Assembly: GCF_012849055.1 (NCBI RefSeq)
Contig: NZ_CP051677.1
Coordinates: 2,060,501-2,124,500 of the forward strand
Length of the DNA: 64,000 bases
Origin: Spirosoma rhododendri
Lineage (GTDB): Bacteria > Bacteroidota > Bacteroidia > Cytophagales > Spirosomataceae
Direction: 5' to 3'
The notes below the pieces were generated by a model that was given only the letters and a program-made list of their open reading frames with translations, was not told the DNA's origin and did not search any database. Each line of letters opens with the position of its first letter. The stretch's first letter is position 1. Positions 21,849 to 23,409 of this stretch are shown piece after piece. Both the position numbers and the translations under genes were made by a program.

Positions 21849-21856
21849 TACTTTTG
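21849..21856 (+). promoter_or_regulatory. -7 element upstream of the candidate RNA
   Basis: TACTTTTG matches TAnnTTTG exactly and sits 10 bases before the first predicted hairpin of the candidate RNA. The region upstream is AT-rich (T-run near 21822-21833), but a clear TTG at spacing 19 is not seen. Confidence 0.5.
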
Positions 21857-21862
21857 CCCTCC

Positions 21863-22021
21863 CAAACTCGGAACCGAGAAAGGCAACATACGCTAGGTGA
21901 AGGTCCGCTACTGCTTTGGCAATTAGTAGAAACCACACCTGACTTTTCACCAGCTGAATCCGCGCAGGCGGCTGTCAGTTGCGTCGCTGAAGGTCAGGTG
22001 CATCGCGCCCGACCTTTTTTT
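21863..22021 (+). ncRNA. Candidate structured RNA / leader upstream of rplC
   Basis: No protein-like reading frame is convincing here, but the segment is full of complementary blocks. It has hairpin CTCG-GAAC-CGAG (21867-21878). AGGTG (21895-21899) can pair with CACCT (21936-21940), enclosing CTACT...AGTAG. CACCTGAC (21936-21943) can pair instead with GTCAGGTG (21993-22000), enclosing CCGC-GCAG-GCGG. GTCAGGTG is in turn part of the terminator stem at 21992-22014. The three pairings exclude each other, as in attenuators and riboswitches. It does not match TPP, cobalamin, SAM, FMN, glycine, SRP or tmRNA motifs I know. It could be an autonomous small RNA ending at 22021 or a regulatory leader of the ribosomal operon. 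Ends are approximate. Confidence 0.5.
21992..22021 (+). terminator. Intrinsic terminator of the candidate RNA
   Basis: GGTC-AG-GTGC-ATC-GCGC-CC-GACC followed by seven T's (22015-22021). The outer and inner 4-bp stems (one G-T pair) flank a small internal loop. The T-run makes this a good intrinsic terminator 136 bases before the rplC ATG. Confidence 0.75.
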
Positions 22022-22077
22022 ATGTTGTTTTTGGGCCTGACTGCTAGATAGATATAGGATTCGTCCAGTAGAATGTC

Positions 22078-22085
22078 TACTTTTG
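22078..22085 (+). promoter_or_regulatory. -7 element of the ribosomal protein cluster
   Basis: TACTTTTG fits TAnnTTTG exactly and lies 71 bases upstream of the rplC ATG, after the terminator at 22021. A -33 TTG is not obvious, so activity is inferred. It would give a leader of about 65 bases. Confidence 0.5.
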
Positions 22086-22156
22086 CGGCCCGATTCGGAA
22101 GGTCCGATGCGGGAATTTAATACCATTTTTCACCTGCTTACTTTAAACAAACACAA

Positions 22157-22777
22157 ATGTCTGGTTTAATTGGCAAGAAAATCGGGATGACCAGCGTGTA
22201 CAATGCGGACGGGCAGGCTCTGGCATGTACAGTGATTGAAACGGGTCCCTGTGTCGTCACCCAGGTCCGTAGCGTCGAGAAAGACGGCTACGCGGCTGTG
22301 CAACTGGGTTTTGGCGAGAAGAAAGAAAAGCACACCAACAAGCCGGAGATGGGCCACTTCAAGAAAGCTGGTACCACGCCGAAGCGGAAACTCGTTGAAT
22401 TCAAAGAATTCACGCAAGAGTTCACCCTTGGCGATACCCTAACGGCCGCTGACGTATTTGGTGAAGGCGACTTCGTCGATGTAGTCGGAACGGCGAAAGG
22501 TCGCGGTTTCCAGGGCGTTGTGAAACGTCACGGATTTGGTGGTGTTGGCGGTCAGACGCACGGTCAGCATAACCGGGGTCGCCACCCAGGTTCGATTGGT
22601 GCCTGCTCGTTCCCTTCACGCGTCTTCAAAGGGCTGCGTATGGCCGGCCGTATGGGCGGTAACCGTGTGAAAGTGCAAAACCTGCGCGTTCTGCGTGTCA
22701 TGTCTGAGCAAAACCTGCTCGTTGTTAGTGGTTCGATTCCAGGAGCCAAAAATTCATTCGTTATCATCGAGAAATAG
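22157..22777 (+). CDS. rplC: 50S ribosomal protein L3
   Basis: 206 residues; organises the peptidyl-transferase region of 23S rRNA. Starts [15 protein letters not shown] and contains the L3 loop signature [22 protein letters not shown] with [18 protein letters not shown]. It is the first gene of the cluster here. The usual upstream neighbours rpsJ, fusA, rpsG and rpsL are absent; the next gene upstream is the divergent SDR. rplD follows 3 bases after the stop. Confidence 0.98.
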
Positions 22778-22780
22778 GCC

Positions 22781-23409
22781 ATGGACGTAATCGTATATAA
22801 CAGCAAAGGCGTCGACACAGGCAAGAAGGTCACGCTGCCCGAAGATGTATTCGGTATCGAGCCGAATAAGCACGCGATTTATCTCGACGTGAAGCAGTAC
22901 CTGGCCAATCAGCGTCAGGGTACACACAAAGCGAAAGAGCGTGCTGAAAACGCCCACTCGACCCGCAAACTGAAGAAGCAAAAAGGTACGGGCGGTGCTC
23001 GGGCCGGTAGTGCTAAATCGCCTGTATTCGTTGGCGGTGGTACCATCTTCGGACCTCGCCCCGCGATTATAGCTTCAAGCTGAACAAGAAAGTGAAGTCG
23101 CTGGCTCGTAAGTCGGCATTCGCTGTAAAAGCACAGGCTGAGAAGATTTCAGTTATCGATTCGATCGCACTGGAAGCACCCCGCACGAAAGATTACATTC
23201 AGTTTCTGAACGATCTGAACCTGACGGGCCGCAAAACGCTGCTCATCCTGCCCGACCTCGACGCTAACGTCGTACTGTCGAGCCGGAACGTACAGAAAGC
23301 TAAGGTGACCACAGCTGCGCAGGTTAATACCTACGATCTGATGAACGCTGACCAACTGCTGATCAGCGAAGCAGCGCTGTCAACTATTCAAACGCTGTTT
23401 AACCAGTAG
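22781..23409 (+). CDS. rplD: 50S ribosomal protein L4 (frameshifted in this sequence)
   Basis: Starts [25 protein letters not shown] and runs through the L4 core [25 protein letters not shown] to GPRP. The frame then fails at a four-C run (23059-23062), and the rest ([18 protein letters not shown] ... [11 protein letters not shown]) is in another frame. Adding one C restores [19 protein letters not shown] and a normal 209-residue L4. L4 is essential and is co-transcribed with its neighbours, so a base-calling error is much likelier than a real mutation. Also a regulator of its own operon in other bacteria. Confidence 0.93.

Follow-up and report, generated by a model that had tools for sequence, protein, structure and literature searches.

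The closest described counterpart of the element considered here is the rplJL leader of Bacillus subtilis, controlled by L10(L12)4, in which an anti-antiterminator, an antiterminator and an intrinsic terminator compete ahead of a ribosomal-protein (r-protein) operon (PMC10931766, PMC4538822), as is proposed below for rplC; according to the available text of the former source, the B. subtilis leader also contains a kink-turn. A further likeness is offered by the S10-operon leader of Escherichia coli, where L4, a product of the operon itself, is believed to cause premature termination within the leader (PMC10931766). Among leaders inferred from comparison, the available text of PMC7247131 gives a predicted L4 leader of Archaeoglobi before rplC-rplD, similar to the present element in standing ahead of rplC, and predicted L13 and S4 leaders of Bacteroidia, similar in belonging to Bacteroidota; the same source describes mimicry of the rRNA binding site as frequent in r-protein leaders and not obligatory. 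For Bacteroidota, an rplC promoter taken from Flavobacterium hibernum is named among parts for cloning, and translation is described as initiating without Shine-Dalgarno pairing (PMC6847099, available text), so that the usual translational repression by r-proteins may work differently in this phylum. The balancing of r-protein synthesis in Bacteroidota is little described, and the locus reported here provides a clear attenuator candidate before a long r-protein operon.

Organization of the locus

The window, i.e., the whole 64,000-nucleotide stretch of Spirosoma rhododendri DNA that was analysed, had previously been examined from its letters only. This sequence-only reading had described three competing blocks and a terminator with seven T ahead of a ribosomal cluster, together with one -7 element before the RNA and a second one after the terminator. 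All of these are located exactly where they had been placed, the two -7 elements occupying 21849-21856 and 22078-22085. The features of the locus are the following:

21849..21856, + strand: predicted promoter P1, -7 element TACTTTTG of the TAnnTTTG type, recognized in the sequence by the consensus of PMC6847099 (available text)
21861..22021, + strand: leader/attenuator RNA of about 161 nt, from homologue alignments and covariance-model matches, with a predicted 5' end
21895..21940, + strand: sensor hairpin (anti-antiterminator), segment 1 AGGTG (21895-21899) pairing with CACCT (21936-21940)
21936..21946, + strand: segment 2, CACCTGAC at 21936-21943 (CACCTGA core), extended to CACCTGACTTT; it supplies the antiterminator with its 5' arm and overlaps the 3' side of the sensor hairpin
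21947..21989, + strand: variable region between the antiterminator arms, a hairpin predicted from covariation and compatible with either state
21990..22000, + strand: segment 3, AAGGTCAGGTG (TCAGGTG core), common to the antiterminator (with 21936-21946) and the terminator (with 22006-22016)
21990..22021, + strand: intrinsic terminator, stem 21990-22001 / 22005-22016 and seven T at 22015-22021, from a pattern scan and conservation
22078..22085, + strand: predicted promoter P2, -7 element TACTTTTG, between the terminator and rplC, from the pattern [TG]AnnTTTG
22133..22138, + strand: CCTGCT element, located within the rplC 5'UTR and inherited together with the attenuator
22157..22777, + strand: rplC (ribosomal protein L3), an open reading frame with its ATG at 22157, opening the ribosomal cluster that follows

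The gene names of the downstream cluster are presumptive, being assigned from the protein sequences. At the P1 position, TAnnTTTG is kept in 30 of 30 aligned relatives within the window's genus. Because the -7 element of this consensus sits at -12 to -5 from the start (PMC6847099, available text), the RNA is predicted to begin at about 21861 and to be about 161 nt long. P2 is found between the terminator and rplC in all 84 distinct loci, with G allowed for the first T of the motif. In the interval between the terminator and P2, at 22050-22066 of the window, a AGATATAGGATTCGTC-like block is strongly conserved in the genus; it may serve P2 as its -33 region, or else be a site for a regulator. 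Farther downstream, rplD (L4; window 22781-23409) consists of two open frames, 22781-23083 and 23092-23409, which lie in different frames in a frameshift-like manner; in an essential gene, such a split would sooner point to a fault of sequencing or assembly than to a genuine interruption.

The CCTGCT element lies 19-25 nt before the rplC ATG in 84/84 attenuator loci and is present in 0/25 rplC loci lacking the attenuator, including 0/5 of the same family. The P1 transcript and the P2 transcript would each include CCTGCT, which is therefore conjectured to be a second, translational control site; shared ancestry alone could also explain its co-inheritance.

Competing pairings and covariation

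In the sensor, a second, inner helix is formed by GGT (21902-21904) and ACC (21932-21934), with AA and A/G left unpaired beside the helices and a variable tip, while TGAAGGTC and GAAACC are invariant in all 32 rows of an alignment of diverse copies. The antiterminator comprises 11 pairs between 21936-21946 and 21990-22000, one of which is G-T. Within segment 3, GTCAGGTG (21993-22000) is invariant in the 30 genus relatives, and segment 4 corresponds to the 3' arm of the terminator. Among 84 distinct homologues, the 1:2 pairing (5 pairs) is complete in 84, the 2:3 pairing (7-bp core) in 82, and at least 6 of the 7 core pairs of 3:4 are kept in 84; all three mutually exclusive pairings, which had been read from the single sequence, are retained together in 82. 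Furthermore, the four segments change jointly. The combination GGATG / CATCTGA / TCAGATG / CATCTGA (segments 1/2/3/4) is found in 28 sequences, GGGTG / CATCTGA / TCAGATG / CATCTGA in 11 and GGGTG / CATCTGA / TCAGGTG / CGCCTGG in 7, and in locus L073 all four are altered together (AAATG / CATTTGA / TCAAGTG / CGCTTGC). As independent 1:2 and 3:4 hairpins would need no match between segments 2 and 3, the conserved 2:3 complementarity argues for a switch.

The single-sequence fold of the window is not significantly stable (z = -1.62; 11 of 200 shuffles equally stable), and a pattern scan of both strands gives 2 terminator-like sites vs 0.9 expected. Taken by itself, the window does not settle the matter; it is the comparison of homologous sequences that confirms the reality of the element. 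In the 30 genus copies, 14 of the 38 pairs of the sensor, middle hairpin and terminator are changed on both sides, a number reached by 0/500 shuffles, and shifted pairing registers pair far less. In the middle hairpin (21947-21989), 11 of 15 pairs are changed on both sides; the same alignment exhibits conserved P1, TGAAGGTC, GAAACC, CTGACT and GTCAGGTG, a variable sensor tip and covariation in the middle hairpin. The antiterminator stem is nearly invariant within the genus (0/11 pairs with a double change in 30 copies).

Across the family, double changes affect 5 of 11 antiterminator pairs and 6 of 10 terminator pairs in 84 distinct rows, each reached by 0/500 shuffles, related sequences being taken as separate in these counts, which therefore do not represent independent events. 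These rows were obtained by merging identical sequences (100 to 84) and excluding two reverse-strand matches, L202 and L192; earlier covariation counts on 86 rows contain both of these. For the sensor, only 1 of 8 pairs is doubly changed, in one sequence of the 84, as many being found in 9/500 shuffles; the sensor is nearly invariant, which accounts for the scarce covariation and leaves its helix unproven by this criterion. Thus, the compensatory changes anticipated for the three stems are present in the antiterminator and the terminator and nearly lacking in the sensor. In the 32-row set, the two doubly changed antiterminator pairs are reached by 11/500 shuffles and the further pair types by 454/500, and one outer antiterminator pair is unpaired in 48 of the 84 distinct sequences.

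Distribution and genomic context

A search of 59 genomes for a 321-base region around the element located it in 34, the own genome among them, all of one genus. The genus members without a match, G002 and G033, are 84% and 71% complete, respectively, and neither gives an rplC match. In a search with rplC, 26 of 28 genomes gave one match each, the other two being incomplete. A covariance model (R1) gave strong matches in 124 of 222 family genomes, representing 18 of 36 genera, and the remaining 98 of the 222 gave no strong R1 match. A second model, R2, built from 32 diverse copies, matched 136 genomes, 12 of which have weak matches only (≤42.8 bits) and are not counted; the other 124 score at least 66.8 bits and are, by eye, the same genomes as those of R1, and all R2 matches apart from the strong ones reach at most 43.2 bits. 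Outside the family, among 291 genomes drawn from the order, R2 gave only weak matches in 8 genomes, none of them at rplC. The element stands beside rplC in records of Spirosoma, Dyadobacter, Runella, Larkinella, Fibrella, Fibrivirga, Persicitalea and Rhabdobacter, and these named loci point to a place of the window near Spirosoma in the family Spirosomataceae. A record titled Flavobacterium sp. SUN052 (L089) also carries the attenuator; it shares 88.8% L3 identity with the window, and its species label may be wrong.

In the loci covered, the linkage to rplC is strict wherever rplC is present; the positional check extended to 20 fetched loci and at least 120 loci found by pattern, which sets its scope for the 124 genomes. 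In 20/20 loci fetched from other genera, rplC lies on the same strand and starts 100-128 bases past the element. In 79/79 rplC-holding loci among the matches listed, the element is upstream on the same strand, with rplC 202-262 bases after TGAAGGTC; one of these, L175, failed the terminator pattern and matches the covariance model. Among the at least 120 pattern loci listed, 41 have no rplC match: in four (L096, L105, L109 and L181) the element is near the end of the locus or contig, and in the other 37 the terminator pattern is absent and the match is taken as chance, with the limit that a full judgement is not possible for three of them (L107, L190 and L193), whose sequence stops no more than 232 bases from the pattern. 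Together with the four-segment conservation, this linkage supports the attenuator of riboswitch or r-protein-leader type that had been suggested from the sequence.

Upstream of the element, the 84 distinct loci differ. In 44, the end of rpsJ lies 16-91 bases upstream and no P1 is present; in 26, P1 is present without rpsJ; in 12, both occur, with rpsJ 93-177 bases away; and in 2, neither is detected by the patterns. In the present genome, rpsJ lies at a distance of about 209 kb and has behind it a plain hairpin and T run (hairpin by eye), so the remark on the missing partner of rplC is correct as far as tested. Of 25 rplC loci without the element, 11, which belong to the same order, have retained rpsJ upstream, and a plain terminator occupies the gap in 8 of the 11. 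The simplest history, proposed from these arrangements and not from a tree reconstruction, would lead from a plain terminator to a switch in the rpsJ-rplC gap, then to the gain of P1 and finally to separation from rpsJ.

Other stretches were noticed in attenuator-free family members. L219, L220 and L221, from two genera (f1 g42 and g44), share another alike stretch within about 330 bases upstream of rplC, with GACTGTGA..GGCAGTC and ACAAGG..GCCTTACC blocks by eye and no Rfam match; it is possibly a different leader. L213 and L215 (f1 g24 and g53) have no [TG]AnnTTTG within 130 bases upstream of rplC, and a hairpin-like stretch, ACAAGCC..AGCCTTGT, is seen by eye near the rplC start, maybe a further leader type.

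Comparison with known RNA classes

The search of the whole window against Rfam 15 at the gathering score returned two tRNAs only and no match to the element, in line with the earlier failure to assign it to a known class. With E values up to 10, the element region gave one sub-threshold match, inside rplC, and eight loci searched against Rfam 15 gave no match. The features expected for an r-protein leader are observed at the sequence level, i.e., a fixed position 5' of an r-protein operon, compensatory changes, and an exclusive antiterminator and terminator.

By eye, the sensor resembles GGGTGAA..CC..GAAACCA in domain I of 23S rRNA. In a profile test over 2363 readable 23S bases, the highest real score fell short of the average for 200 shuffles, and 142 of the shuffles equalled or exceeded it. 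When 25 short natural cores out of 52 were aligned with gaps to the 23S, the median p was 0.44 and the lowest 0.05, with the domain I site on top for 1 of the 25. As neither test over these bases is supportive, mimicry of 23S by the sensor was dropped as evidence and not as a possibility. A trp-type leader-peptide attenuator was rejected: no short frame is conserved across segment 1, loop lengths range from 6 to 24 with 38, 28 and 18 of the 84 falling into modulo-3 classes 0, 1 and 2, and a stop-free plus-strand frame is found in only 19 of 84 RNAs, frame and stop counts which speak against this type.

Proposed mechanism and alternative explanations

Collectively, these findings make it probable that the element is a cis-acting transcription attenuator governing the entry of RNA polymerase into the rplC r-protein operon, and the either-or fold kept across many relatives suggests that it is probably a switch tuning ribosome production. 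During transcription, the 2:3 antiterminator would form by default, and polymerase starting at P1, or arriving from rpsJ in relatives, would then read into rplC. A ligand holding the 1:2 hairpin closed would free segment 3 for pairing with segment 4, and transcription would stop at about 22021. P2 would provide a basal supply bypassing the switch, and CCTGCT may act on the translation of both transcripts. Because P2 is present in 84/84 loci, only part of rplC transcription would be switched and the effect of the switch would be limited. The operon's control point that had been suspected here is consequently upheld as a control point, and probably not as the sole one.

The calculated energetics, which include RNA energies only, are consistent with this scheme. 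Before the 3' arm of the terminator is made, the antiterminator is favoured over the 1:2 hairpin in 32/32 homologues, by a mean of 6.4 kcal/mol. In the full-length RNA, again by RNA energies only, the two states are nearly equal, with sensor plus terminator favoured in 17/32 and a mean of 0.5 kcal/mol. The antiterminator is the full-length optimum in the other 15/32, by up to 6.6 kcal/mol (L075), and termination in these would need a ligand or kinetics. Such values fit default read-through, with stabilization of the 1:2 hairpin leading to termination, which is the same logic as in the B. subtilis rplJL leader.

The nature of the ligand is less sure. It would be an r-protein of the operon present in excess over rRNA; from the gene content and by analogy with E. 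coli, L4 (rplD) is tentatively put forward as the first candidate, and L3 or another operon product would be the alternative. It is possible, though doubtful as a whole, that the element represents an undescribed Spirosomataceae r-protein leader family in which the plain rpsJ terminator was turned into a ligand-controlled switch. On the separation of rplC from rpsJ, this switch would have been retained and provided with a promoter, and its coupling to the co-inherited CCTGCT would let one r-protein (possibly L3, or L4 at a novel non-mimicking site) govern transcription as well as translation. L3 is not, to our knowledge, an established autoregulator.

A small-molecule riboswitch, sensing for instance a translation- or growth-related metabolite and placing the same attenuator on the ribosomal operon, would also account for the compact sensor hairpin with its invariant TGAAGGTC and GAAACC and for the riboswitch-like expression platform. 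However, rplC is next in every examined copy whose downstream gene is in the locus, whereas a riboswitch of such age is usually found before other genes too, and Rfam gives no match; this reading is rather improbable. An independent small RNA had also been raised from the sequence; it would act in trans, measure about 160 nt, possess a promoter and a terminator of its own and neighbour rplC by history only. The promoter kept in the window's genus (30/30), the terminator and the separate P2 of rplC agree with it, but in 44/84 distinct loci the element directly follows rpsJ and the pattern detects no promoter belonging to it. Moreover, no examined full-element locus precedes a gene other than rplC (four family loci end before the next gene), and a free RNA would need no 2:3 pairing in competition with the terminator. 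The location in the rpsJ-rplC gap without a promoter, or behind its own promoter where rpsJ has left, makes the attenuator the most likely reading and disfavours the small RNA, which is quite unlikely.

If the element were merely the constitutive terminator of the rpsJ (str-type) operon, insulating P2 and with the conserved hairpins as decoration, the plain terminator at the same place in 8 of the 11 rpsJ-linked, element-free loci of the order and the constant presence of P2 (84/84) would be readily understood. Yet in this genome, where rpsJ stands elsewhere with a plain hairpin and T run of its own, the element persists under a dedicated promoter, and a plain terminator requires neither an invariant sensor nor an antiterminator; this explanation is highly unlikely.

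Relation to described leaders

A cis-acting attenuator of rplC would belong to a kind of system that is already known; as a family, it has no match in Rfam 15 or in the literature searched, since no published description was found in open-licence PubMed Central articles or Rfam 15. In the available text of PMC7247131, the table lists no bacterial leader regulating rplC and no word beginning with "cytophag" occurs, which sets the element apart by description from the leaders given there. In contrast to the B. subtilis rplJL leader, whose logic it shares, the attenuator proposed here concerns other genes in another phylum. From the E. coli S10 leader it is likewise set apart by description, as NusA-dependent pausing with stabilization by L4 is described there (PMC10931766, available text) and a 1:2 / 2:3 / 3:4 switch is proposed here. 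From the evolutionary series of a plain terminator, a switch in the gap and a switch that has acquired a promoter, one could learn how terminators are made into control RNAs and how such an RNA stays with its target gene on the splitting of an operon. In position, too, the two leaders differ: that of the E. coli S10 operon precedes rpsJ, whereas the present element follows rpsJ or stands alone.
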